Assembly (NCBI GenBank): GCA_903885595.1
Contig: CAISJJ010000013.1
Coordinates: 1 to 60,911 of the forward strand
Source of the DNA: an uncultured Bacteroidales bacterium
GTDB taxonomy: Bacteria > Bacteroidota > Bacteroidia > Bacteroidales > FEN-979
Length of the DNA stretch: 60,911 nucleotides
Direction: 5' to 3'
The translations under genes and the position numbers were made by a program. This document shows positions 6,494 through 19,359 of the stretch, piece after piece. The notes under the pieces are model-generated. The model saw only the letters and a list, made by a program, of their open reading frames with translations, did no database searches and was not told where the DNA came from. How positions within the stretch are numbered: position 1 is the first letter of the stretch; the number at the start of each line of letters is the position of its first letter.

Positions 6494-7723
6494 ATGAAAC
6501 GACTCTTGATCCTTGGGGCTGGCACAGGTGGCACCATCATGGCCAACAAAATGAGAAAACAGTTGCCCCGTGATGAATGGGATATAACCATTGTTGATCA
6601 GCATAAAACACATTATTATCAGCCCGGTTTTTTATTCATCCCGTTTGGCATGTATAATCGCCAGGATGTTGTGAAACCAAAAACCAGTTTTCTCCCGCTT
6701 GGAGTCAATGTCATATTTCAGGAAATCGACCGCATAGAGGGAGCCAATAACCATGTGATTCTTCGCGACGGGATATCACTGAAATATGATTTTCTTATTA
6801 TTGCAACCGGCACAAGGGTGGTTCCCGAAGAGACTCCTGGCCTTAAAGGACCACTCTGGCACAAAAACATTTTCGATTTTTACACGATCGAAGGTGCCAT
6901 TGCACTGGCTGATTTTTTCAAAACATGGCAAGGCGGGGAACTCGTATTGAATATTGCTGATGTACCCATAAAATGCCCGGTAGCGCCGCTTGAATTCGTC
7001 ATGTTTGCCGACGCATTTTTTGTCGAACGCGGTATCCGCAACAAAGTAAACATCTCTTATTCAACGCCCATGTCGGGAGCCTTCACGAAACCCAGGGCCT
7101 CGAAAATGCTTGGAACTTTACTGGAAGAAAAAAATATCAGCATTATCCCCGACTTTTATCTCGAAAAAGTTGATAATGAGAAAAAAGCACTCGTTTCCTA
7201 CGATGAACGAGAAATTCCGTTCGATTGTCTCGTTACCATCCCGGTCCATAAAGGCGATCCGATGATCGGACGAAGCGGTTTAGGTGATGAGATGGACTTT
7301 GCAAAGGCACATAAACACACGCTGCGATCAGACTTTTTCCCGAATATATTTGTGATCGGGGATGCCGGTAACTTCCCGACATCCAAGGCAGGATCGGTTG
7401 TTCACTTCCAGGCTGATGTCCTTACAGAAAACCTGATGTGTGCCATTGAAAACCGCCCATTTACTGAGTCTTTCGATGGCCATTCCAATTGTTATATTGA
7501 AACCGGATTCGGGAAAGGCGCCCTGATCGACTTTAACTATGATACCGAGCCGCTTCCGGGTTCATTTCCATTTCCGGGAATTGGTCCATTCGGACTGCTT
7601 AAGGAAACAAGAATGAACCATTACGGAAAGCTGATTTTCCGATGGATATACTGGCATATCCTGTTAAAAGGCAAAGAGATGCCCATCGATTCAAAGATGA
7701 CGATGGCTGGTAAAAAAATGTAA
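6494..7723 (+). CDS. sqr: Sulfide:quinone oxidoreductase-like flavoprotein
   Basis: A 409-residue FAD-dependent enzyme of the SQR family, expected to oxidise sulfide to sulfane sulfur or polysulfide at the inner membrane and pass electrons to quinone. The N-terminal dinucleotide fold LILGAGTGGTIMANKM, the ATGTRVVPEETPG region and the second FAD motif FVIGDAGNFPTSKAG are visible. Redox cysteines equivalent to those of characterised SQRs are C161 (IKCPVAPLEF) and C333 (SNCYIETG). No cysteine is found near residue 125-130, so it lacks the third cysteine of the classic bacterial type I enzymes and resembles two-cysteine SQRs. The C-terminus (IYWHILLKGKEMP) is amphipathic and suits membrane association. 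A DUF1641 gene follows after 11 bp. Confidence 0.85.
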   Translation: MKRLLILGAGTGGTIMANKMRKQLPRDEWDITIVDQHKTHYYQPGFLFIPFGMYNRQDVVKPKTSFLPLGVNVIFQEIDRIEGANNHVILRDGISLKYDFLIIATGTRVVPEETPGLKGPLWHKNIFDFYTIEGAIALADFFKTWQGGELVLNIADVPIKCPVAPLEFVMFADAFFVERGIRNKVNISYSTPMSGAFTKPRASKMLGTLLEEKNISIIPDFYLEKVDNEKKALVSYDEREIPFDCLVTIPVHKGDPMIGRSGLGDEMDFAKAHKHTLRSDFFPNIFVIGDAGNFPTSKAGSVVHFQADVLTENLMCAIENRPFTESFDGHSNCYIETGFGKGALIDFNYDTEPLPGSFPFPGIGPFGLLKETRMNHYGKLIFRWIYWHILLKGKEMPIDSKMTMAGKKM

Positions 7724-7734
7724 TTCAAATCGCT

Positions 7735-8304
7735 ATGTCAGAAAAGAACATTCAGGAACAAATCGGCGAACTCAACCAGAAACTGGATCTGATCCTTGAA
7801 AGTATTGAACAGCAAAAACGGAATCGGGAGGAATTCGATGATCTCGTTTCAGATTTGAGTATTGTGGCAAAAGACGCCTTCCAGCATACTGTAATAATGC
7901 TGGACAAATCACAGGTTGATCTTGATCACAGTGGAATTCCCATGCTCCTGGTAAAGCTCCTGCAAAACATTGATACGTTCTATGAAATGCTGGAAATGCT
8001 GGAAAGTGCAAAGGATTTCATGAAAGATATTTCACCGGTCATTCACCAGATGGGGCTTGATGCCATTAATAAAATGAATGAATTTGAGCAGAATGGTTAC
8101 TTCGACATTGTCAGGAACTTAACCCGGCCCGATGTTATCGCAGCGCTTGGACGGACCTCAAAAGCAATTGCCGAAGTTAAAATGGATGACACCCTGGATA
8201 ACAGGTCTTTGTTCAGCCTGGTAAAACAAATGAATTCCCCGGATGTTCGTAAATCGTTGTCCTATGCCTTGAGACTTGTCCAGGCGATCAATCAGGAAAA
8301 ATAG
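7735..8304 (+). CDS. DUF1641 family protein
   Basis: A 189-residue soluble, largely helical protein. The region around residues 85-160 (KDISPVIHQMGLDAINKMNE...RPDVIAALGRTSKAI) resembles DUF1641, a family often encoded next to SQR or formate dehydrogenase genes. It starts with a predicted coiled coil (IGELNQKLDLILESIEQQKR). No cysteines or catalytic motif are seen, so a scaffolding or partner role for SQR is the best inference. It is probably co-transcribed with sqr. Confidence 0.7.
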   Translation: MSEKNIQEQIGELNQKLDLILESIEQQKRNREEFDDLVSDLSIVAKDAFQHTVIMLDKSQVDLDHSGIPMLLVKLLQNIDTFYEMLEMLESAKDFMKDISPVIHQMGLDAINKMNEFEQNGYFDIVRNLTRPDVIAALGRTSKAIAEVKMDDTLDNRSLFSLVKQMNSPDVRKSLSYALRLVQAINQEK

Positions 8305-8305
8305 C

Positions 8306-8338
8306 GGGACACGGGACCCGGGACACGGGACCCGGGAC
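8306..8338. repeat. Tandem 14-bp repeat (GGGACACGGGACCC)
   Basis: Two full copies and a partial third copy follow directly after the DUF1641 stop. The unit contains the self-complementary core GGGACCC/GGGTCCC and can fold. Directly downstream, 8419-8443, is a second low-complexity stretch with the phrase AATCGTAA twice in tandem. Confidence 0.8.
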
Positions 8339-8451
8339 AAAGTAATAAAGTAACAAGGCAATATGGCAATGAAATATAGGGTTCCTAAATAGAAAGGAAA
8401 TTGTTTTGCAGTTTTTTCTAATCGTAAATCGTAAATCTAAAATCATTTTGT

Positions 8452-8763
8452 ATGGCACAGAAAATTATCGCAGGAGTAACCGTCGATGTAAATGAAGAGG
8501 GTTACTTCACAAATCCTGCCCAATGGACTAAAGATTTGGCAGTAGAAGTTGCAAAGGAAGAAGGAATCCAGCTGACGGATAAACACTACGCTGTTCTGGA
8601 TTTTCTCCGCGACCGGCATTCGAAAGGCGAAGCCCTGACGATTCGTTCGGTTGGCAACTCTGGCATTGTCGATATCAAGGGATTTTATGGCCTCTTTCCC
8701 GGGGCCCCAATGAAAAAGGCAGCAAAAGTTGCAGGAATTCCTAAACCGGCATCCTGCGTGTAA
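8452..8763 (+). CDS. DsrC/TusE-family sulfur carrier with a single C-terminal cysteine
   Basis: A 103-residue DsrC/TusE/DsvC-family protein. The C-terminal arm ends in GIPKPASCV, keeping the penultimate redox cysteine (CysA). At the position of the second cysteine of true DsrC the sequence reads KKAAKV, so CysB is replaced by alanine. This is the TusE-like state: such a protein can carry a persulfide but cannot form the internal disulfide or DsrC trisulfide. It therefore probably relays sulfur, here between the neighbouring SQR and DsrE-like proteins. A two-cysteine paralog lies at 12254. Confidence 0.88.
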   Translation: MAQKIIAGVTVDVNEEGYFTNPAQWTKDLAVEVAKEEGIQLTDKHYAVLDFLRDRHSKGEALTIRSVGNSGIVDIKGFYGLFPGAPMKKAAKVAGIPKPASCV

Positions 8764-8819
8764 CCTTGTGGGCCAATAAAAATGAAACAGCTTACATCCC
8801 CAATTTAATAATTATAACA

Positions 8820-9320
8820 ATGGCAAAAGAAGAATTTCCTTTAAAAAAAGTCTGCCTAATCTGTGCCAAAGGCACCATTGAAGATGTTTACGCAGCATTG
8901 GTGATGAGCAACGGCGCCGTCATGGAAGGTATTGAAACCAAAATTTTCTTTACCTTTTTCGGCCTCGATGCCATTACAAAAAAAACCATGAACAGCCTGC
9001 ATACCGGTACCGTTGGCAACCCGGCCATGCGTATGCCGGGTGGGCTGCCATTCCCGACACTTCTCGGTTTACTACCTGGCGTTGAAGCCGGTGTTTCTGC
9101 TATGATGCGCAGCCAAATGGATAAACTGGATATCCCGCCGGTTAAAGAATTTCTTGAGATGATCGAAGCGGGTGGCGGTGAAATATATGCCTGCAAACTG
9201 GCGATGGATATGTTCAAACTGAAGAAGGAAGATTTGTGGGAAGGTGTTAAGGATGTGCTTACAGTCGGCCAGTTCTATGAGATGTGCGGAGGTCTTCAGA
9301 CCCAGATCATCTTCACCTGA
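8820..9320 (+). CDS. DsrE-like (DsrE2/DrsE_2 type) sulfurtransferase
   Basis: A 166-residue protein of the DsrE/DsrF-like superfamily. Cysteines are C12 and C15 (KKVCLICAKG), C125 (EIYACKLAMDMF) and C156 (YEMCGG); the last two are typical of the peroxiredoxin-like DsrE2 subgroup, whose members bind persulfide and hand it to DsrC/TusE/TusA. The ATG at 8820 was chosen over an upstream TTG frame because the family N-terminus begins at the KVCLIC strand. It is 56 bp after the one-cysteine DsrC gene and ends at a bidirectional terminator. Confidence 0.8.
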   Translation: MAKEEFPLKKVCLICAKGTIEDVYAALVMSNGAVMEGIETKIFFTFFGLDAITKKTMNSLHTGTVGNPAMRMPGGLPFPTLLGLLPGVEAGVSAMMRSQMDKLDIPPVKEFLEMIEAGGGEIYACKLAMDMFKLKKEDLWEGVKDVLTVGQFYEMCGGLQTQIIFT

Positions 9321-9416: not shown

Positions 9417-10118
9417 TCAGCCATTTTTGCTGATCTGCTGCAGCAGGTCCGGGTTGATAACGCTGATGGTTCGCCCATCCAGGTGAAGAATACCTTCTTC
9501 TTTGAATTTTGTCAGGACACGTGTGGCGCTTTCTCTCGATATTCCAATAAGATCGGCAAACTCCTGGCGGGAAAAGGGAACTTCAAACGACTCCGACTCA
9601 TAAATGATCTTAGAAAAATAAAGCAACGCATCGGCAACCCTGCCATATGTCTTTTTTTGCGACTGGTTCATGAACCTGTGAAAGTTATTGAGGCTGTCGC
9701 GACTTACCGATACAAGGATCTCATAGGCAAAATTGCCGTTTTGCCTTACAAGCCGGTTAAAGATATTGAGGTCAATGTAACAAACAGTTATGTCCTCGAG
9801 CGCTGCATAGGAGTAATGGTTGATCCGGTCACCAAAAAGAGAGGGTAATCCAAGGTAGGTGTGTTTTTTAACGATCTGCAGAATCTGTTCCTTGTCATTT
9901 GAACCCTTCTGAAATTCTTTAACAAGGCCCGATTTCAGATAAATAATATGGGATGTCATTGACCCTTCATGCAGGATAATATCACCCTTTTTAAAAGCAG
10001 CTTCCCGGCTGTTTTCGTTAACCTGGTCAATTTCATTGATGTTCAGAACTGCTGCTGCACAGGACTTTACCTTGCAGTCGCGACATGATGTTATTTTATA
10101 GTTGTTATCCTGGTACAT
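9417..10118 (-). CDS. Crp/Fnr-family regulator with FNR-type cysteines and CRP-type recognition helix
   Basis: A 233-residue regulator: cNMP-binding-type beta-roll (about 25-140), dimer helix, and winged helix-turn-helix (about 170-225). N-terminal cysteines C12, C15 and C20 plus C113 reproduce the spacing of the E. coli FNR [4Fe-4S] ligands (C-x2-C-x4/5-C-x92-C), so oxygen or redox sensing through an iron-sulfur cluster is likely. The recognition helix ISRESATRVL carries R195-E196-x3-R200, the pattern CRP uses to read TGTGA, and not the E-x2-SR of FNR. A perfect TGTGA-N6-TCACA site lies 63-78 bp upstream of its own start. It is transcribed away from the NifX-DsrC-DsrMK operon. Confidence 0.85.
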   Translation of the reverse strand: MYQDNNYKITSCRDCKVKSCAAAVLNINEIDQVNENSREAAFKKGDIILHEGSMTSHIIYLKSGLVKEFQKGSNDKEQILQIVKKHTYLGLPSLFGDRINHYSYAALEDITVCYIDLNIFNRLVRQNGNFAYEILVSVSRDSLNNFHRFMNQSQKKTYGRVADALLYFSKIIYESESFEVPFSRQEFADLIGISRESATRVLTKFKEEGILHLDGRTISVINPDLLQQISKNG

Positions 10119-10180: not shown

Positions 10181-10196
10181 TGTGATATCTGTCACA
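10181..10196. promoter_or_regulatory. CRP-type operator TGTGA-TATCTG-TCACA
   Basis: A perfect 5-6-5 palindrome in the 247-bp divergent region between the fnr-like gene and the dsrC-dsrMK operon. The adjacent regulator has the matching CRP-type recognition residues. If the minus-strand start uses the weak -7-like TATTTACA (about 10150-10157), the site is centred near -43, an activator position. It is about 121 bp from the plus-strand -7 box. Confidence 0.65.
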
Positions 10197-10365: not shown

Positions 10366-10713
10366 ATGAATATGAAAATAGCATTTCCTACCAACGACGG
10401 ATTATCCTTTTGTTCCGATTTCAGTCAAAGCAAAGCATTTCTTATCCTGACCTGTGAACTTGGTGAAATCACCGGCGAAGAAATGAGATGGAATAAAACA
10501 AATGATGTGATTTTTAATTCCGATTTATTCCTTAATCCCATTAACGACTGCCAGGTCGTAATGGCAAATGATATAGGCCCGCTCTTTACCGGACTTCTCC
10601 GTGGTAAGAAAAAAGATATTGTTCTTACCCAGGAGTCGATCATCACCAATGCATATGTTCACTACCTGGAAAATTCGCTTCGGAAAGAAGCCAATACCTG
10701 TTGCTGCCCCTGA
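10366..10713 (+). CDS. NifX/NifB-C-terminal-like (dinitrogenase Fe-Mo cofactor) domain protein
   Basis: A 115-residue protein with the fold of PF02579: MKIAFPTNDGLSFCSDFSQSKAFLI at the N-terminus corresponds to the family start (MKIAxPTDxG...FGxA..F). It ends in TCCCP, three adjacent cysteines at 112-114, suggesting metal or iron-sulfur binding. Proteins of this family carry iron-sulfur fragments or cofactors, and small stand-alone members occur in organisms without nitrogenase. It is the first gene of an operon with cysteine desulfurases and DsrMK, so delivery or storage of iron-sulfur units is an inference. An internal ATG two codons later (10372) is equally possible. Confidence 0.75.
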   Translation: MNMKIAFPTNDGLSFCSDFSQSKAFLILTCELGEITGEEMRWNKTNDVIFNSDLFLNPINDCQVVMANDIGPLFTGLLRGKKKDIVLTQESIITNAYVHYLENSLRKEANTCCCP

Positions 10714-10728
10714 TCATTCGCCCTTTTT

Positions 10729-12219
10729 ATGAATACAGAGAAATATTTTAAAAAATTCCGTAAAAATATCATCGGACAGGAGCAACATTTTTATTCGCCT
10801 TATGGACGGAAAAGGATAATCTATGCCGACTGGATCGCCAGCGGCCGTTTATATCGTCCGATTGAAGATAAATTAACCAATTCCATCGGCCCTTTCATCG
10901 GGAATACGCATACTGATACCAGTGAAAATGGCAGGCTGATGACTGCGGCCTACCACGAGGCCCATTTGCGGATTAAGAAACATGTCAATGCGGGTCCCAT
11001 GGATGTAATTATTACAACAGGGTTCGGGATGACAGGCGCCATTGTAAAATTTCAACGGATCCTTGGCCTGAAATCCTGCGGCGAGCTCGAAGGGCATCCC
11101 GGCCCCGCTGAAGCCGACCGTCCGGTCGTATTCATCACACATATGGAGCATCACTCCAACCACACCTCGTGGTATGAAACATTTGCTGATGTGGTTATTG
11201 TCGAACCCGGCCCTGACCTTCTGGTGGATCTGAAAAATCTTGAATCAGCATTGATAAAGTACAATGGCCGAAAGCGGAAAATAGGCTCCTTTACTGCATG
11301 CTCCAATGTTACAGGAATCCGCACGCCTTACCATGCCATGGCCCGGATGATGCATGAACACGGGGGGCTTGCATTTATTGACTTTGCGGCATCCGCACCC
11401 TATGAGGACATTAACATGCATCCTGCCGATCCAATGGAAAAACTGGATGCCATCATGTTTTCACCACATAAGTTTTTAGGGGGACCTGGTTCATCGGGGG
11501 TGCTCATTTTCGACTCCTCGTTGTACAACAATAAAGTGCCTGATCAGCCTGGCGGCGGTACCGTAGACTGGACCAACGCATGGGGAGAATACAAATTCAT
11601 TGATGATATCGAGATAAGAGAAGACGGCGGAACTCCGGGATTTTTACAAGCGATAAAAACGGCCCTCGCCATCGAACTGAAAAATCACCTGGATGTGAAA
11701 AGGATGAATGAACGCGAAAAAGTCCTGGTCGGTCTTGCCTTTAAAAAATTGCGTAAGATTCCAAAAGTCCATATCCTGGCCGATAACATTACTGATCGGT
11801 TGGGGATAATGTCATTTTATGCCGATTCAATCCATTATAACCTGGTTGTTAGACTGCTCAGCGACCGGTTCGGCATCCAGGCACGGGGCGGATGTGCCTG
11901 TGCAGGGACTTATGGCCATTACCTGCTGGATGTAAGCCACGATAAATCAAAAAAAATTACCGATAAGATCAATACAGGCGACCTTTCTGAGAAACCAGGC
12001 TGGGTAAGGATTTCCCTGCACCCCACCATGACAGACACGGAGTTGCTCTTTATCCTGGAGGCGATTAAAAAGATTGTAAAAAATCACAAAAAGTGGGAGA
12101 TTGACTACACGTATGATAAGCATACCAACGAGTTCAGGCATAACAAGGAAATAAAATCTAAAGCAAGGATTGATTCCTGGTACAAACTTGCTCCGGGAAA
12201 CAAATCAATCAAGTACTGA
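10729..12219 (+). CDS. Class V aminotransferase / cysteine desulfurase-like PLP enzyme
   Basis: A 496-residue fold-type I PLP enzyme of the NifS/SufS superfamily. The N-terminal IIYADWIASGRLYRPIE, the THMEHHSNHTSWYE segment (His stacking on PLP), AFIDFAASAPYEDI (Asp for the pyridine nitrogen) and SPHKFLGGPGSSG (Schiff-base K248) are present. The mobile-loop region reads ARGGCACAGTYG with C389 and C391, a different arrangement from the RxGxHCA of SufS. It is longer than typical desulfurases (about 400). Its place directly before dsrC suggests it supplies persulfide sulfur, but a lyase or aminotransferase activity cannot be excluded. It is 15 bp after the nifX-like gene. Confidence 0.78.
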   Translation: MNTEKYFKKFRKNIIGQEQHFYSPYGRKRIIYADWIASGRLYRPIEDKLTNSIGPFIGNTHTDTSENGRLMTAAYHEAHLRIKKHVNAGPMDVIITTGFGMTGAIVKFQRILGLKSCGELEGHPGPAEADRPVVFITHMEHHSNHTSWYETFADVVIVEPGPDLLVDLKNLESALIKYNGRKRKIGSFTACSNVTGIRTPYHAMARMMHEHGGLAFIDFAASAPYEDINMHPADPMEKLDAIMFSPHKFLGGPGSSGVLIFDSSLYNNKVPDQPGGGTVDWTNAWGEYKFIDDIEIREDGGTPGFLQAIKTALAIELKNHLDVKRMNEREKVLVGLAFKKLRKIPKVHILADNITDRLGIMSFYADSIHYNLVVRLLSDRFGIQARGGCACAGTYGHYLLDVSHDKSKKITDKINTGDLSEKPGWVRISLHPTMTDTELLFILEAIKKIVKNHKKWEIDYTYDKHTNEFRHNKEIKSKARIDSWYKLAPGNKSIKY

Positions 12220-12253
12220 AATCACAGGATTGATAATAAACTAACCTGGAATT

Positions 12254-12571
12254 ATGGCTAATATTGAAATCGAAGGAAAAATTTTTGATGTGGATGGTGA
12301 TGGCTTCTTGTCTGCCCCTGAAACATGGAATGAGGAGGTTGCTTCTCTTTTTGCCCGGTATGACGGTATCCCTGAACTGAGCGACAAACACTGGGCGATA
12401 GTCAGGATAATAAGGAGAAACTTTATCGAAAAGGGCATGGCCCCTATGATTCGCACAATCTGCCAGGAAACAGGCATCAAACTTCGGGAGATATACGAAT
12501 TGTTCCCACTAGGGCCTGCCAGGGGAGCCTGCCGGGTGGCAGGACTTCCAAAACCAGATGGTTGTGTTTAG
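12254..12571 (+). CDS. dsrC: DsrC with both redox cysteines
   Basis: A 105-residue DsrC. The C-terminal arm reads GPARGACRVAGLPKPDGCV, with CysB (in GACRV) and the penultimate CysA spaced ten residues apart, exactly as in DsrC of sulfite reducers and sulfur oxidisers. Such DsrC can hold a trisulfide or internal disulfide and is the substrate of the DsrMK membrane complex. Genes for DsrMK-like subunits follow at 14 and 10 bp spacing. No DsrAB gene is present in the window, so the source of the DsrC-bound sulfur here is probably a desulfurase and not sulfite reductase (inference). Confidence 0.93.
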   Translation: MANIEIEGKIFDVDGDGFLSAPETWNEEVASLFARYDGIPELSDKHWAIVRIIRRNFIEKGMAPMIRTICQETGIKLREIYELFPLGPARGACRVAGLPKPDGCV

Positions 12572-12585
12572 TCATTTCTTTGCTT

Positions 12586-13206
12586 ATGAACTGGCACCAC
12601 TATTTTATCCTGGCCTGCATGGGAGTATGCCTGGCGTTTTGCATATATCATGTAATCAGACTAATTCGTCTGGGGAAACCTTCTGATTATTCCCCGCCAG
12701 CCGGCGTAGTGACGGAGGCCGTTGTCTATTCGTTTACAGGGGCCATGAATCCGGCAAAAAAAGAATCTGCCTTTCTTCACCTGCCAACCTATTCAGCAGG
12801 CATACTTTATCACCTGGGGACTTTTCTTTCATTGCTGCTCTTACTGCTGTTCCTGTCAGGCATGATCCTCCCAATCGAAATAAGATATCCGCTTATGTTC
12901 GCCCTCCTTGCCTCTGTGATCAGCGGGACAGGTATACTCATCAAGCGATTCATCAAAAAAGGGCTAAGGAACCTATCCAGTCCTGACGACTTTATGGCTA
13001 ACATCCTGGTGACAATCTTCCAGGTGATGACAATCCTGATGCTGATCCGGGGAGAAATGTTTCCCGGATATTGTATTTTAACCGGTGTGTTGATGTTATA
13101 CTTCCCTCTTGGCAAATTAAAACACGCCATCTATTTCTTTGCGGCCCGGTATCATCTTGGATATTTCTTCGGATGGAGGGGCGTATGGCCTCCAAAACAA
13201 ACCTGA
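12586..13206 (+). CDS. DsrM/HdrE/NarI-like membrane cytochrome b subunit
   Basis: A 206-residue membrane protein with about five hydrophobic segments. Paired histidines H65/H76 (LHLPTYSAGILYHLG) and H180/H190 (KHAIYFFAARYHLG) resemble the two heme-b ligand pairs of nitrate reductase gamma (NarI) and HdrE/DsrM. The C-terminal GYFFGWRGVW is also typical of that group. It is shorter than most DsrM. Together with the next gene it would form a minimal quinone-linked DsrMK complex. The ATG at 12586 is preferred over an upstream GTG that overlaps dsrC. Confidence 0.75.
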   Translation: MNWHHYFILACMGVCLAFCIYHVIRLIRLGKPSDYSPPAGVVTEAVVYSFTGAMNPAKKESAFLHLPTYSAGILYHLGTFLSLLLLLLFLSGMILPIEIRYPLMFALLASVISGTGILIKRFIKKGLRNLSSPDDFMANILVTIFQVMTILMLIRGEMFPGYCILTGVLMLYFPLGKLKHAIYFFAARYHLGYFFGWRGVWPPKQT

Positions 13207-13216
13207 ATCAGCAGCA

Positions 13217-14512
13217 ATGGAAAAATTAAGCGAAATTCAGATCCGCCAGGGGCTATCTGTTTTTACAAACCTGACCGACAATAAACTGCTGACTCACCTG
13301 AACAGTTGCGTTCATTGCGGACTTTGTGCAGAAAGTTGCTTATACTTTCTGAAAACCCGGGATGACCGCTTTACACCTGCGCACAAGGCAGATATCGTTT
13401 CATCCGTTTACCGTCGTTACAACACAGTCACCGGCCGGTTGTTTCCAAAACTTGTCAATGCAAGGGAGATGAATATGGACACAGCCTCTGAGATGGTCGA
13501 CCTGTTGTTTGGTGCATGTACGATGTGCGGAAGATGCACCATGCATTGTTCTATAGGGGTTGACATTGGCTTCCTTGTAAAAACAGGCCGCAGTATGCTT
13601 TCGAACATGGGACTGGTCCCGGCAACACTTCAATCGACAATAAAAGCCGCGTTGGAGAGCGGTAACAACATGAGCATCCCGGTTGATGAACTCACTTCCA
13701 CATTGCAATGGATGGAAGAAGAACTCACCGATGAGGTAAACAATCCCGAAGCACGCATCCCGGTTAATGAGCCCGGGAAAAATATACTTTATACACTCAA
13801 CCCCAGGGAGCCCAAGTTTTTCCCACTTTCTATTTCAGCAATGGCAAAAATATTTTTCGCAGCCAGGGAAAGCTGGACCCTCTCAACCAGGATGTATGAT
13901 GTAACAAATTATGCTTATTTCACTGGTAACCCTGGGGAATCAAAGTTAATTGCCGCACGTTTGTGGCAAGAGATGGACACCCTGAAGGCAGGAAAACTCG
14001 TTTTAGCCGAATGCGGACATGGCTCACGTGCTTTACGCTGGGAATCTCCCAATTACATGAAAGCTCACTTTCCTTTCAAAGTCGAAACTTCTGTTGAAAC
14101 AATTGCCAGGTACCTTCACCAGGGGAGGATACGACTTGACCCCGAAAAAATAAGGAAAACAGTTACACTGCACGACCCCTGCAACCTGGTACGGAACGGA
14201 GGGATCATCAATGAACAAAGATATATCCTTAAAAGATTCATCGCCTCATTCGTTGAGATGACTCCAAATGGCGCTGATAATTTTTGTTGCGGTGGCGGTG
14301 GTGGACAATTGGCCATGAGCGAATACAACGACCGGAGAATGAAGATCGCAGAAATTAAAGCGGATCAGATCCGGAAAACCGGCGCCAGGATTGTGGTCAC
14401 ACCATGCCATAATTGCGTGGATCAACTCACACAGATCAATGTCACCTATAAACTTGGAATCCAGGTAAAAACACTGGCAGAGATCGTTGCTGATGCCCTG
14501 ATTCTTGAATGA
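13217..14512 (+). CDS. DsrK/HdrD-like iron-sulfur protein
   Basis: A 431-residue cytosolic iron-sulfur protein, catalytic partner of the membrane cytochrome encoded 10 bp upstream. Two [4Fe-4S] ferredoxin-type motifs are visible: C31-x2-C34-x2-C37-x3-C41 (CVHCGLCAESC) and CTMCGRCTMHC at about 110-120. A complete CCG motif for the noncubane cluster follows: C322 (HDPCN), C357-C358 (NFCCGGGG) and C397-x2-C400 (PCHNC). This is the arrangement of DsrK and HdrD, which split or reduce disulfides and trisulfides. The LAECGHGSRAL segment (about 275) is also a family feature. ATG 13217 was chosen; the upstream frame overlaps the cytochrome gene. Confidence 0.88.
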   Translation: MEKLSEIQIRQGLSVFTNLTDNKLLTHLNSCVHCGLCAESCLYFLKTRDDRFTPAHKADIVSSVYRRYNTVTGRLFPKLVNAREMNMDTASEMVDLLFGACTMCGRCTMHCSIGVDIGFLVKTGRSMLSNMGLVPATLQSTIKAALESGNNMSIPVDELTSTLQWMEEELTDEVNNPEARIPVNEPGKNILYTLNPREPKFFPLSISAMAKIFFAARESWTLSTRMYDVTNYAYFTGNPGESKLIAARLWQEMDTLKAGKLVLAECGHGSRALRWESPNYMKAHFPFKVETSVETIARYLHQGRIRLDPEKIRKTVTLHDPCNLVRNGGIINEQRYILKRFIASFVEMTPNGADNFCCGGGGGQLAMSEYNDRRMKIAEIKADQIRKTGARIVVTPCHNCVDQLTQINVTYKLGIQVKTLAEIVADALILE

Positions 14513-14545
14513 TACCAGTAATACCAAATTAAATACCCTCATCCT

Positions 14546-15706
14546 ATGAGCAACCTGATCTATCTCGACAACTCGGCAACAACCTTTCCAAAACCTGACG
14601 TGGTCTACACTTTTATGTGCAACTTTTACCGGGAACACGGGGTTAACCCAGGCCGGTCCGGCTTCGATGCTGCTATTGAAACTGAGGAAGTAGTGCAGGA
14701 AACGAGAAAAATGCTAACCACCCTATTCAATGGCGATGATCACAACCGGCTTACATTCAGTTATAATGCAAGTGATTCATTAAACATGATCATCCAGGGG
14801 ATGGCTGAACCAGGTGACCATGTCATCACCACGATGCTGGAACATAACTCCGTTCTGCGCCCATTGTATCATTTGTCGCTGCAAAAGATCATCGACGTTA
14901 CTTTCATTCCATTTGATCATCACGGTTACCTGGACCCTGAGGATATCAGGAAGGCAATTCGGCCGAATACAAAGATGGTGGTTGTAAATCATTGTTCCAA
15001 TGTGATCGGAACCGTGCAACCCCTGGCTGAAATTGGTAAAGTATGCAAGGGGGCTGGTGTTTATTTCTTAGTTGATGCCAGTCAGAGTGCAGGTGCCATT
15101 CCTATTGATATGAAGGCTATGGGCATTGATGTGCTGGTGTTCACCGGTCATAAATGCCTGATGGGACCAACTGGCATCGGCGGTTCGTATGTAATGGAGG
15201 GAGTTCCCGTTAAGATGACCCGTTACGGTGGCACAGGCGTACGGTCAGCCCAGAAAACCCATCTTGAAGAGTTCCCTTACCGCTTGGAATGTGGGACCCT
15301 GAATATAGTTGGTGTGGCAGGTTTGCATGCCGGTTTAAAATGGGTGCTTGATCAGGGGTTAGATCATCTGCATAAGAAGGAGATGTATTTATGGGATAAA
15401 TTAAGGAACGGGGTACAACACCTGGATAATGTCATAACCTATTGCGCAGAAAACCAGGAAAACCAAAACCCAGTCCTGAGTTTGAATATCAACGGTTTCG
15501 ATTCCGGAGATGTAGGCACCATGCTCGACGTGGATTATAATATTGCATGCCGTACCGGGCTTCAATGTGCACCGCTTGTGCATGAAAGACTTGGAACAGA
15601 TAAAATACATGGCACTGTGCGCCTGAGTATCGGTCCGTTCAATACCATTCAACAGATTGACCTGGCCATTTCAGCCATTAGCGAGATCGCTTCGATCCGT
15701 CGTTAA
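14546..15706 (+). CDS. Cysteine desulfurase family protein (NifS-like)
   Basis: A 386-residue PLP enzyme. It begins with LIYLDNSATTFPKPDVVY, has LEHNSVLRPL (PLP-stacking His), LVDASQSAG (Asp), FTGHKCLMGPTG (Schiff-base K203) and the active-site cysteine C341 in CRTGLQCAPL. The RTGLQCAPL signature matches the desulfurase subfamily common in anaerobes next to selenium or sulfur genes. It should release sulfur from cysteine as a protein persulfide; the neighbouring DsrC and DsrK make DsrC a likely acceptor. It is the last gene of the operon, 33 bp after dsrK-like. Confidence 0.85.
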   Translation: MSNLIYLDNSATTFPKPDVVYTFMCNFYREHGVNPGRSGFDAAIETEEVVQETRKMLTTLFNGDDHNRLTFSYNASDSLNMIIQGMAEPGDHVITTMLEHNSVLRPLYHLSLQKIIDVTFIPFDHHGYLDPEDIRKAIRPNTKMVVVNHCSNVIGTVQPLAEIGKVCKGAGVYFLVDASQSAGAIPIDMKAMGIDVLVFTGHKCLMGPTGIGGSYVMEGVPVKMTRYGGTGVRSAQKTHLEEFPYRLECGTLNIVGVAGLHAGLKWVLDQGLDHLHKKEMYLWDKLRNGVQHLDNVITYCAENQENQNPVLSLNINGFDSGDVGTMLDVDYNIACRTGLQCAPLVHERLGTDKIHGTVRLSIGPFNTIQQIDLAISAISEIASIRR

Positions 15707-15768: not shown

Positions 15769-15776
15769 TATTTTTG
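15769..15776 (+). promoter_or_regulatory. -7 box TATTTTTG before the cysteine synthase gene
   Basis: An exact TAnnTTTG match 43 bp upstream of the ATG, with a TTTT stretch 18 bp further upstream as a poor -33. It separates the cysteine synthase transcript from the DsrMK operon. Confidence 0.45.
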
Positions 15777-15818
15777 CAACCGGTAAGCGCTTCACAAATC
15801 CATTCTCCCTTTCAAACC

Positions 15819-16931
15819 ATGAATATAAATACCCGTATCGACAACCAGTTTAAACTCCGTTTCATCGATCTGTGGCGATTGATCGGGAACTCGCCTATGA
15901 TCGCTATCAATTTCCTCTACAAGGGTGAAAAGAGAGTTATTTATGCTAAGTCGGAACACTATAATGTAACCGGGAGCATCAAGGACCGTATGGCATTATA
16001 CATCCTTGAACGGGCCTATGCCGAAAACCGTATTAAACCCGGTGATACCATTGTTGAAGCTACCAGCGGCAATACCGGTATTGCCTTTGCAGCCATAGGG
16101 AAGGCCCTTGGGCATAATGTTCGTATCATCATGCCCGATTGGATGAGCAAAGAGCGCGTTGACATCATTAAAAGTTTAGGGGCTAAAATAATCCCGGTTT
16201 CAAAAGAACAGGGTGGATTCCTTGGAAGTATACGGATTTCGGAAGAGATTGCTGCCAAAGAATCCAATATATTTCTGCCGCAGCAGTTTTCCAACGATGC
16301 CAATGCTGAGGCACATGAAAAAACTACCGGTCCCGAAATCTGGTATCAGCTTCGTTATCATGGCATAACACCGGATGCCTTTGTTGCCGGAGTTGGAACA
16401 GGGGGTACAGTTATGGGCGTTGGCCGATATCTGAAATTACTAAACCCATCCATTCAAATGCATCCACTTGAACCGGCTGAATCACCAACTATGTCAACAG
16501 GACACAAAGTTGGCTCTCATCGTATCCAGGGCATCAGTGATGAATTTATTCCCGCTATCGTAAAACTCGACCAACTTGACCGGATTGTTGCCGTTCATGA
16601 TGGTGATTCAATCATCCTCGCCCAGAAACTTGCCAGTCAGCTGGGTTTGGCCGTCGGTATTTCTTCCGGCGCTAATTTTCTAGGAGCCCTGCAGATTCAG
16701 AGTGAACTCGGCCACGATGCCTCAGTTGTAACTGTTTTCGCCGATTGCAATAAAAAGTACCTCAGTACTGACCTTATGCGTGAAGAACCACTCAGGGAGG
16801 ATTATGAATCCAACCACATTGAATTTACAGGATTCAAAGTCTTTAAGCGTGTTTGCGATACTTGCTGTGAAATGGGCAGATGTGACATCCGGCCCCTTGA
16901 TTTTCCCTGCAGGAAATCTCAACAATCATAA
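15819..16931 (+). CDS. Cysteine synthase / cystathionine beta-synthase family protein with Cys-rich tail
   Basis: A 370-residue fold-type II PLP enzyme. Schiff-base K55 sits in [10 protein letters not shown], the carboxylate loop is [10 protein letters not shown] and the phosphate loop is [10 protein letters not shown]. The core matches O-acetylserine sulfhydrylase / CBS (about 310 residues). A C-terminal extension carries C346, C349, C350, C355 and C364 ([10 protein letters not shown] then PLDFPC), not found in standard CysK. It may bind a metal or iron-sulfur cluster or act as a sulfur carrier. The enzyme would make cysteine from sulfide, feeding the upstream desulfurases. ATG 15819 lies downstream of the -7 box; an upstream TTG overlaps that promoter and is rejected. 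Confidence 0.88.
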
Positions 16932-17307: not shown

Positions 17308-17718
17308 ATGAAAACTGCATCCAGAATTTTTTTAACGCTTGGCCTGGTTCTGTTCCTGGCAGGCGCAACTTTCTCACAAGCGGCTTCAATTGCCAGCACT
17401 GCCAAATCTGACACGAAACAAACCACTGCGGCACCGGGTAAATTCGTCGACACAAACAAGAATGGCGTTTGTGATAATCACGAAGCCAAAGGCGGCGGCA
17501 CCCAGGGTAAAAATTTCAAAGATAAAAACGGAGATGGGAAATGCGACAACGGCGGATCCAACGGAAAATGTACCGGAACCGGCTGCGGAAAAGGCCAGGG
17601 AAAAGGCAACTGCTGCGGTCAGGGCCAGGGTAACGGAAATGGCTGTGGTCAAGGTCATCAACCCAAGAATGGTTGTTCCGGCCAGGGTAGTGGTGCAACC
17701 ACTCAACCTAAAAAGTAA
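17308..17718 (+). CDS. Small secreted Cys/Gly/Gln-rich protein with two calcium-loop motifs
   Basis: A 136-residue protein with a signal peptide (MKTASRIFLTLGLVLFLAG...) cut near TFSQA. The mature part holds two EF-hand or dockerin-like loops, DTNKNGVCDNHE and DKNGDGKCDNGG, each with a cysteine inside the loop. It then has a low-complexity tail of Gly, Gln, Lys and Cys (CGKGQGKGNCCGQGQG) with about seven cysteines. It looks like a periplasmic or surface metal-binding protein. I do not recognise a family. A strong hairpin separates it from the ECF sigma gene downstream. Confidence 0.7.
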   Translation: MKTASRIFLTLGLVLFLAGATFSQAASIASTAKSDTKQTTAAPGKFVDTNKNGVCDNHEAKGGGTQGKNFKDKNGDGKCDNGGSNGKCTGTGCGKGQGKGNCCGQGQGNGNGCGQGHQPKNGCSGQGSGATTQPKK

Positions 17719-17734
17719 GTAACTGACACTACTG

Positions 17735-17772
17735 AAGTCAAAATATGCCTTTAGCATGGCATATTTTGACTT
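17735..17772. terminator. Strong hairpin between the Cys-rich protein gene and the ECF sigma gene
   Basis: A perfect 15-bp stem (AAGTCAAAATATGCC / GGCATATTTTGACTT) with an 8-nt loop, followed by TTATTG. It ends 20 bp before the sigma factor ATG. It is probably the terminator of the Cys-rich gene; it may also act as a partial barrier that lets some transcripts into the sigma operon. Confidence 0.75.
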
Positions 17773-17792
17773 TTATTGTTTGAAGTAACAGC

Positions 17793-18374
17793 ATGACCGA
17801 CCCCGAACTGATTGACGGAATTCTGCAGCGTGATCGCAATGCCTTTCAGTATCTGGTGTCCCATTATCAGAAACAGGTGATTAAAACGGCATTTTATTTC
17901 CTGGGGAACATGGAAGATGCTGAGGATTTATCACAGGAAATTTTTCTTGATATCATCCATTCAATGAAATCGTTTAAACAATCGTCCTCGCTATCAACTT
18001 GGATCTACCGGATCACCGTCAATAAATCGTTGAACCAGTTAAAAAAGCAACAAAGAAAGGGGATTGCAGTCAGGCTTGAATCATTCTTCAGGGTTCAGAC
18101 TGATAACAGTAAAAGTCATGATGCTGAACCTTATGTGACTGCTGCCGATTATGAAGAGAAGGAAAAACGGGAACTGCTGCATTCAGCTATCAACAGGTTA
18201 CCGGAAAATCAAAGAATTGCCTTTGTTCTGAACAAATTTGATGACCAATCGTACAAACAAATTTCAGAAATCATGAATATCGGACTTCCGGCAGTAGAGT
18301 CCCTGATTCACCGGGCGAAAATAAATCTGCAGAAACATTTAATTCCACAGTTTTCAGAATATCAAAAGACCTGA
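17793..18374 (+). CDS. ECF-type RNA polymerase sigma factor
   Basis: A 193-residue sigma-70 family protein with region 2 (about 10-75: AFQYLVSHYQKQVIKTAFYFLGNMEDAEDLSQEIFLDI is the typical core) and region 4 (about 125-180: RLPENQRIAFVLNKFDDQSYKQISEIMN then LPAVESLIHRAK). The linker of about 50 residues is usual. The anti-sigma gene follows after 2 bp, and a Spy-like sensor follows that, forming a three-gene envelope-stress cassette. Confidence 0.92.
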   Translation: MTDPELIDGILQRDRNAFQYLVSHYQKQVIKTAFYFLGNMEDAEDLSQEIFLDIIHSMKSFKQSSSLSTWIYRITVNKSLNQLKKQQRKGIAVRLESFFRVQTDNSKSHDAEPYVTAADYEEKEKRELLHSAINRLPENQRIAFVLNKFDDQSYKQISEIMNIGLPAVESLIHRAKINLQKHLIPQFSEYQKT

Positions 18375-18376
18375 CC

Positions 18377-18826
18377 ATGGATTGCAAACAAATTACCGAT
18401 AACCTCTTCGCATTTCATGAAGGTACCATCCCGCATGAACTTCACTATTCTATAGAGGAGCACCTTTCGTCATGTGCCTCCTGTGCAAAGCTGAATGCAG
18501 GTTTTAAAAAGTATTGTGACCTTATTGACATTGAAAAAGAAGCAGAGCCTAATCCTTTTGCCACCACGAGGATTCTGCAACATATCGAATCAGCATTTAA
18601 CCGCCCTGAATCCCGCAATACCCCTTTATGGCTGAAGATCATGCAACCGGTTGCAATTGCCTTTGCCCTCATGTCCGGAATTTTGATCGGATCCTACTCG
18701 GCTAAAACCAGAGATTCCTCTACCGGCCATGTAACTGCCAAAACAGAGCAAATTCAGTTCCTGAAATCAGATTTTTATATTACCGAATTCACCGATGAAG
18801 ACAGAATACTTGATCTAAATAATTAG
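18377..18826 (+). CDS. Anti-sigma factor with putative zinc-binding N-terminus
   Basis: A 149-residue membrane protein. The N-terminal segment HYSIEEHLSSCASC gives the H-x3-C-x2-C pattern of zinc-finger anti-sigma factors (zf-HC2/ZAS). One transmembrane helix lies at about 83-103 (WLKIMQPVAIAFALMSGILI), leaving a short periplasmic tail. It would hold the sigma factor encoded 2 bp upstream. Confidence 0.85.
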   Translation: MDCKQITDNLFAFHEGTIPHELHYSIEEHLSSCASCAKLNAGFKKYCDLIDIEKEAEPNPFATTRILQHIESAFNRPESRNTPLWLKIMQPVAIAFALMSGILIGSYSAKTRDSSTGHVTAKTEQIQFLKSDFYITEFTDEDRILDLNN

Positions 18827-18828
18827 CC

Positions 18829-19359
18829 ATGAACTTTTTTCAGAAATACCGCTATATAGTTTGGGTGTTGATCCTGCTGGTTGTTATCAATGTTGCAGCT
18901 TTGGTCAGTTTTTTTCTTTTCGAAAAAACCGGCTCATCCGAATCCTGCTGCCCTCCGCAGGAAAAACAAGTCCGTTCATTCAGCAATGAGCTGGGATTAT
19001 CAGCAGTGCAAACAGAAAAAGTTACCCTTATCAATCAAAATTATAAGGCTCAAGCAGAACCCATCGCTGCTGAGATAAAAAAAACCAGGGGCGCGATCCT
19101 GAATGAACTTGAACAAAATCAGCCCGATACCAGCCTGCTGAACAGATTGTCGGAAGAATTCTCTGTCTTGCAGAAGAATATTCAGAAAGAGAATATCAGG
19201 CAGTACCTGGAATTAAAAAAAGTTTGTAATGCGGATCAGATACAACGTTTGTCAGCGCTTTACCGTGATCTGTACGGTTGTCCGATGCAAGCTAATGCAA
19301 TGAAGCATAAACTTCGGCATGGACAAGGTAAATCCAAGGGGCAAGCAAGGTGTGAGTAA
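18829..19359 (+). CDS. Spy/CpxP/CnrX-like periplasmic metal-stress protein
   Basis: A 176-residue protein with one N-terminal membrane anchor (about 7-31) and a helical periplasmic domain. The segments ELGLSAVQTEKVTLINQNYKAQ and LNELEQNQPDTSLLNRLSEEF resemble the LTxxQ repeats of Spy and the heavy-metal sensor CnrX. Cysteines follow the anchor (ESCCPPQE) and occur near the C-terminus. It starts 2 bp after the anti-sigma gene, so it is probably the signal-sensing third component. Confidence 0.75.
   Translation: MNFFQKYRYIVWVLILLVVINVAALVSFFLFEKTGSSESCCPPQEKQVRSFSNELGLSAVQTEKVTLINQNYKAQAEPIAAEIKKTRGAILNELEQNQPDTSLLNRLSEEFSVLQKNIQKENIRQYLELKKVCNADQIQRLSALYRDLYGCPMQANAMKHKLRHGQGKSKGQARCE

Follow-up and report, generated by a model that had tools for sequence, protein, structure and literature searches.

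A conserved four-gene unit joins two-cysteine DsrC, a membrane cytochrome, an iron-sulfur protein with a CCG domain and a predicted cysteine desulfurase in Bacteroidales genomes

We analysed a 60,911-nucleotide stretch of DNA from an uncultured Bacteroidales bacterium (contig CAISJJ010000013.1 of assembly GCA_903885595.1, hereafter the window), which is contig C13 of its own genome, an assembly of 6.02 Mb in 547 contigs that is 94.5% complete. An earlier note, made from the letters of the window alone, had described an operon joining two desulfurases, DsrC and a minimal DsrMK, with no DsrAB in sight. The open reading frame (ORF) list of the window holds six tightly spaced ORFs at 10366-15706 on the + strand, as first described, with stop-to-start gaps of 15, 34, 14, 10 and 33 bp if CytM is taken to begin at ATG 12586 and FeSK at ATG 13217. 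The six genes are:

10366..10713, + strand: small NifX/NafY-like protein (weak assignment, from an E 2e-4 match to the MrpORP C-terminus), lineage-specific
10729..12219, + strand: AT5a, class V aminotransferase of the SufS/CsdA superfamily (PF00266), lineage-specific second desulfurase candidate
12254..12571, + strand: dsrC, with Cys93 and Cys104 (PF04358), core gene
12586..13206, + strand: cytM, NarI-like b-type membrane cytochrome (NarI fold, conserved His), core gene
13217..14512, + strand: feSK, cytoplasmic iron-sulfur CCG protein of the HmcF/TmcB/DsrK superfamily (family scores, fold), core gene
14546..15706, + strand: nifSb, cysteine desulfurase with catalytic Cys341 (TIGR01977), core gene

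The conserved unit within this run is 12254-15706, the four genes dsrC-cytM-feSK-nifSb. A FeSK profile search of a species-genome collection returned 218 encoding stretches; our locus counts rest on the best 80 of these 218, and each denominator comprises the loci with enough flank for the gene in question. By tblastn, DsrC lies just upstream of FeSK in 71/72 loci and CytM in 73/74, and NifSb follows downstream in 67/70. All four core genes are present, with their order kept, in 60 of the 63 loci with enough flank, so their association is more than chance. The exceptions are L083, L090 and L092, without an adjacent NifSb, and L110, without DsrC and CytM at that place. By record title, the 80 loci are assigned to Bacteroidales/Bacteroidetes or Ignavibacteria; two titles differ, with L050 given as 'bacterium' and L045 as 'Alphaproteobacteria'. 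Since AT5a was found in at least 17/80 and the NifX-like gene in at least 6/80 loci (blastp against ORFs, whose count is a lower bound), these two are additions in a minority of near relatives and are not core; of the six-gene operon first proposed, four genes form the conserved unit. AT5a is a class V aminotransferase as had been read (PF00266, 130.5 bits), and scores 121 bits with the SufS model against a cut-off of 475. The NifX-like assignment is weak, with the MrpORP match as its only family match and no Pfam family found in a scan of this ORF.

DsrC of the window matches PF04358 at 112.7 bits (cut-off 24.9) and TIGR03342 at 95.2 bits (cut-off 53.5), and it carries both C-terminal redox cysteines, Cys93 and Cys104, in a CX10C arrangement, as the earlier note had seen. 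This pair is kept in 73/73 neighbouring DsrC of FeSK loci. The protein is about 50-52% identical to DsrC of genomes G405 and G414, and a third cysteine, Cys70, was dropped as a group marker because DsrC of G405 and G414 carries it too. NifSb scores 428.7 bits with TIGR01977 (cut-off 377), which upholds the call of a NifS-like protein; it is by model score a member of this cysteine desulfurase family, with desulfurase activity predicted. Its score with the SclA selenocysteine lyase model, 325.5 bits, is below that model's cut-off of 525. The catalytic Cys341 is found in 69/69 full-length relatives and H202-K203, with the PLP lysine, in at least 97%; the motif RTGL[QH]CAP occurs in 69/74 NifSb, the other five (L051, L066, L081, L101 and L102) being fragments by length.

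FeSK has the two ferredoxin-type motifs (CX2CX2CX3C) and the CCG domain (PF02754) that had been attributed to it, and their cysteines are invariant in a 22-sequence alignment (A3), for which bit scores were taken for the first member and the others were compared by best E-values. The window's FeSK scores 294.5 bits with HmcF, 287.1 with TmcB and 226.1 with DsrK (cut-offs 750, 735 and 400), and a distant FeSK (G037) gives TmcB 293, HmcF 283 and DsrK 221 bits. For the DsrK-type controls, three proteins of G405 and G414, the ranking is reversed, with DsrK at 285, 304 and 734 bits and TmcB/HmcF always lower (131-179), though two of these three (285, 304) also miss the DsrK cut-off of 400 with DsrK as their best model. 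Because HmcF and TmcB outscore DsrK, the reverse of the controls, we set FeSK apart from DsrK: judged by model scores, it forms a group of its own within the HmcF/TmcB/DsrK superfamily, closest to Hmc/Tmc. CytM matches HmcE and TmcC weakly (20.8 and 20.2 bits in the window against cut-offs of 275 and 240; 20-36 bits when relatives are included). The DsrM model matched neither the window's CytM at E 1e-3 nor three relatives at 1e-5, and one of three control DsrM proteins was likewise unmatched. A Pfam scan of CytM matched no family. Its predicted model (pLDDT 91.7) has NarI chains of NarGHI as top structural matches, weak ones at E 0.02 and TM about 0.5. Among 61 aligned CytM sequences (Met12586 = 1), H76 and H180 are invariant, H22 and H65 are kept in 90% and H190 in 77%. 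The FeSK fold is nearest EtfD (9ojn, E 1.3e-11, TMq 0.67), at 16% identity, followed by LutA and HdrB, and EtfD-type 9ojn is also the sole match of a PDB sequence search with FeSK (E 1e-3); EtfD, HdrB and LutA serve ETF, the CoM-CoB heterodisulfide and lactate oxidation, respectively. A search of plasmids with FeSK gave three records at 23-30% identity.

On these scores the label of a minimal DsrMK was rejected. The locus does resemble DsrMK and DsrMKJOP in that dsrC has genes for a b cytochrome and for an iron-sulfur protein of the CCG kind as neighbours, but FeSK and CytM are shorter (431 and 207 amino acids against 537-552 and 328-336 in control ORFs), and FeSK reaches its DsrK score below those with HmcF and TmcB. 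The genes identified in the operon of the window do not include DsrJ, DsrO or DsrP, and no genome search was aimed at these three. The resemblance to Hmc and Tmc lies in the best FeSK matches and the weak CytM ones; the differences are that all scores fall far below the equivalog cut-offs and that the core here consists only of CytM and FeSK with dsrC and nifSb. The earlier note had held that grouping of the DsrK-like protein with HdrD or GlpC-type proteins unrelated to DsrC would undo its reading. The HmcF/TmcB-best scores touch this point but leave the idea of DsrC redox chemistry standing, since HmcF and TmcB have themselves been suggested as DsrC partners in sulfate reducers: according to PMC10553843, Tmc, like DsrMKJOP, is predicted to reduce DsrC.

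Co-occurrence across genomes follows the same pattern. Among 61 near relatives FeSK is present in 16, and a two-cysteine DsrC and NifSb are found in exactly those 16, all 16 DsrC being read as CX10C; 18 of the 45 FeSK-negative near relatives have a one-cysteine DsrC and no other. In an order sample of 295 genomes at least 90% complete, which overlaps the 61, FeSK is present in 35. A two-cysteine DsrC (at least 110 bits) accompanies it in 35/35 against 2/260 of the others (G546 and G758), and NifSb in 34/35 against 1/260 (G546). The one FeSK genome without NifSb is G746, whose FeSK contig breaks off there, and G611 was counted as NifSb-positive from two contig-end fragments. The 110-bit threshold was chosen after the scores were known; the next match (G676, 107.7 bits) is a one-cysteine protein, and 30 of the 37 DsrC above the threshold were read, all two-cysteine (CX10C at 30/30 loci). 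Twelve FeSK-negative genomes have NifSb paralogs of 38-44% identity past E 1e-80, which were not counted as orthologs. In a phylum sample, 81/392 genomes pass E 1e-20, yet by score only G000 (865 bits) and G240 (800 bits) are FeSK-like; two further matches are DsrK-type (179 and 164 bits) and the remainder fall below 100 bits. For both the order and the phylum searches, part of the first-look candidates were scored. We attach no probability to the co-occurrence, given the overlap between the samples and the kinship of their genomes; Fisher values, which take no account of relatedness, do not enter the evidence. Genomes G587, G668 and G037 have dsrC, FeSK and nifSb at separate places and still keep them all, and G589 has nifSb on another contig. 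Retention of the whole set when dispersed speaks for function more than for inheritance as a block, and the linkage of DsrC, membrane pair and desulfurase is strong. Where dsrC is split from FeSK in L126, L169 and L171, the same 468-amino-acid protein follows alongside dsrC, with cytM beside dsrC in L126 and L169.

Identical co-occurrence would also arise if NifSb were an assembly factor, providing the sulfur of the several clusters that FeSK requires, and DsrC-CytM-FeSK handled disulfide redox chemistry with no transfer of sulfur. Genome G546, however, has nifSb directly after dsrC with no FeSK found, albeit on a contig that ends about 0.4 kb upstream, and in near relatives genes for TusA and DsrE come after NifSb. 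To our knowledge, no desulfurase occurs in HmcF, TmcB or DsrK operons. We regard an assembly role as decidedly unlikely.

PF01077 has no match in the own genome (11/14 controls matched), and the dsrA model at E 0.001 matches 0/67 FeSK genomes, unlike the sulfate reducers that carry Tmc and Hmc. These 67 comprise 17 genomes with G handles and 50 of the 80 loci, and 66 are distinct, as G240 and G461 share contig and place. The same dsrA model matches G405 and, under its cut-off, 8/14 controls. The missing DsrAB of the earlier note thus extends from the window to these genomes. As to aprAB, which the earlier note had listed as a check, there is no aprA in the own genome, and aprA is over cut-off in 4/67 FeSK genomes (G021, G028, G478 and G480, all without a dsrA match). 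A different arrangement is seen in G414 (98% complete), which has dsrC-dsrM-dsrK of DsrK type at L128:5919-8788 and no dsrA match. This resembles PMC10504309, where DsrMK without DsrAB is given for seven assemblies of bacteria that fall in a basal clade of DsrK, along with Chloroflexi DsrM from genomes without DsrAB; those systems differ from the window's in being DsrMK, and no desulfurase is mentioned in the available text.

Together, gene order, co-occurrence, conserved residues, the lack of a detected sulfite reductase as sulfur taker and the NarI, EtfD, LutA and HdrB folds favour a proposed quinone-linked DsrC oxidoreductase (CytM-FeSK) fed by a dedicated desulfurase (NifSb), which would take cysteine to sulfide without sulfite reductase. 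We put this reading, including its direction and chemistry, at a little short of an even chance. It draws on the persulfide chemistry of desulfurases, the thiol chemistry of DsrC, quinone-side b hemes and disulfide reduction by CCG domains. NifSb would move the sulfur of L-cysteine to a persulfide on Cys341, as family chemistry and the observed residues suggest, from which it may pass to Cys104 of DsrC. Attack by Cys93 would then release sulfide and leave a Cys93-Cys104 disulfide, or possibly a trisulfide. Electrons from menaquinol would travel through the b hemes of CytM to the CCG-domain cluster of FeSK and reduce the DsrC disulfide, a step that we infer from the HmcF/TmcB/DsrK and NarI relatives. 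The net reaction would be cysteine + quinol to alanine + H2S + quinone. Of the earlier reading, the tight linkage of DsrC, a membrane pair and a desulfurase without DsrAB stands, and the identity of the membrane pair as DsrMK does not.

Several points weigh against this proposal. Menaquinol is possibly too weak a donor for the disulfide at standard conditions. Adjacent NifSb is absent in 3/70 flanked loci, and L110 has no adjoining DsrC or CytM. TusA and DsrE do not adjoin NifSb in the window, where SQR and DsrE2 adjoin the operon instead and bear on direction; the aprA genes in 4/67 FeSK genomes likewise leave the direction of electron flow ambiguous. For Hmc and Tmc, PMC4215793 gives the cytoplasmic partner as not known, with DsrC or ferredoxin suggested.

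In 8/15 fetched loci a NifSb-DsrE-TusA run with a CPxP TusA is present, which fits a relay from the desulfurase to DsrC; in these near relatives TusA and DsrE beside NifSb may pass sulfur onward. Transfer of sulfur from DsrEFH to DsrC has precedent (PMC3397948). The same joint presence of desulfurase, TusA, DsrE and DsrC in 8/15 fetched near relatives would also suit a biosynthetic relay of the IscS-TusA-TusBCD-TusE kind, serving tRNA thiolation or cofactors, in which the membrane reductase would reset DsrC. The locus departs from the TusE/TusA relay in its two-cysteine DsrC and quinone-type membrane pair, and TusA and DsrE are not beside the window core. TusE-type carriers need one cysteine, and here both are kept in 73/73. 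The module is also patchy (35/295), unlike an essential thiolation path. A biosynthetic role is improbable, and the least probable account that we considered. Downstream of NifSb, the loci L021, L022, L023, L026, L030, L031, L033 and L034 carry DsrE, TusA, FlpD/MvhD and an HdrA-GltD-like fusion of 930 amino acids, the last of which is also found without FeSK; the same eight have HdrA-like (674 amino acids) and QmoC-like (371 amino acids) proteins after the operon.

The flanks of the core in the window hold further features:

6494..9320, + strand: separate neighbouring module of type III SQR, DUF1641, one-Cys DsrC and DsrE2 (family scans)
9417..10118, - strand: divergent CRP/FNR-family regulator (Pfam cNMP_binding and HTH_Crp_2), FNR-like in its N-terminal CX2CX4C and central Cys
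10181..10196, no strand: palindrome TGTGATATCTGTCACA (TGTGA-N6-TCACA), likely regulator site, sole exact match in the window
15774..16931, + strand: cysteine synthase-like PALP enzyme with a Cys-rich tail (PF00291, 232.9 bits), outside the conserved core

The SQR module and the aprA carriers make the oxidative direction the main rival. Sulfane sulfur or sulfide bound to DsrC would be oxidised, electrons would pass through FeSK and CytM to the quinone pool, and NifSb would return or remove the carried sulfur. SQR, DUF1641, one-Cys DsrC and DsrE2 adjoin the operon in the window and in L026/L042, L044, L029/L046 and L030/L047 (DUF1641 was not detected in L029/L046), and a set of HdrA/FlpD/QmoC-like genes follows the operon in 8/15 fetched loci. 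However, neither the PF01077 search of the own genome nor the dsrA search of the 67 genomes found an rDsrAB or other siroheme reductase to complete the oxidation; SQR3 lies beside the core in only 4/80 loci, the SQR set is found without FeSK too (G676, and G050, where the contig ends), and desulfurase chemistry runs out of cysteine. We consider the oxidative direction unlikely. The HdrA/QmoC-like set was set aside as a part of the system, having full-length matches in 11 FeSK-negative near relatives and a fragment in the own genome (G000:C503). The type III SQR of the window scores 629 bits with the selenoprotein-subtype model (cut-off 525) and has no in-frame stop.

The regulator's cysteine pattern, which we take to resemble that of FNR, is complete in 13/13 aligned orthologs, the window included; CX2CX4C was used to pick these orthologs and the central Cys was not. 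Within the window the exact TGTGA-N6-TCACA occurs only at 10181-10196, and with one mismatch allowed there are 5 occurrences against 2.5 expected. The exact palindrome recurs in 8/13 homologous intergenic regions (absent in L036, L046, L075, L079 and L176), and it is likely a site for the putative control of the operon by this regulator. On the other side, the cysteine synthase-like gene directly follows the window's two desulfurases, and a blastp match to CysK was found in 0/80 loci in the flank sequence examined. Beyond it, 17308-19359 encodes a small Gly/Cys-rich protein, a sigma factor-like protein, an anti-sigma-like protein and a 176-amino-acid protein. In L027 and L028, the operon has relatives of the anti-sigma-like and the 176-amino-acid protein in its vicinity.

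We did not recognise a description of this operon in the open-access literature, mostly judged by title, with subscription papers and preprints outside the scope; nor is it described in the available text of PMC10504309, PMC8076601, PMC10553843, PMC10266427, PMC11129491, PMC9040765, PMC12740246 or PMC4215793.

In metagenomes, finding DsrC is taken to indicate that sulfite is reduced or sulfur oxidised, a reading that a recurrent DsrAB-free module would change. A module of DsrC, membrane pair and desulfurase would give DsrC a testable role apart from sulfite, and may bear on the evolution of DsrC and its reductase apart from DsrAB. Beyond this we raise, as a doubtful extension, an anaerobic branch of cysteine-sulfur respiration in many Bacteroidota and Ignavibacteria, in which the desulfurase would feed DsrC and menaquinol would reduce the sulfur to sulfide independently of sulfite reductase. 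The habitats in record titles are anoxic lakes, sediments, soda lakes and guts, where such a route from cysteine to sulfide might operate.

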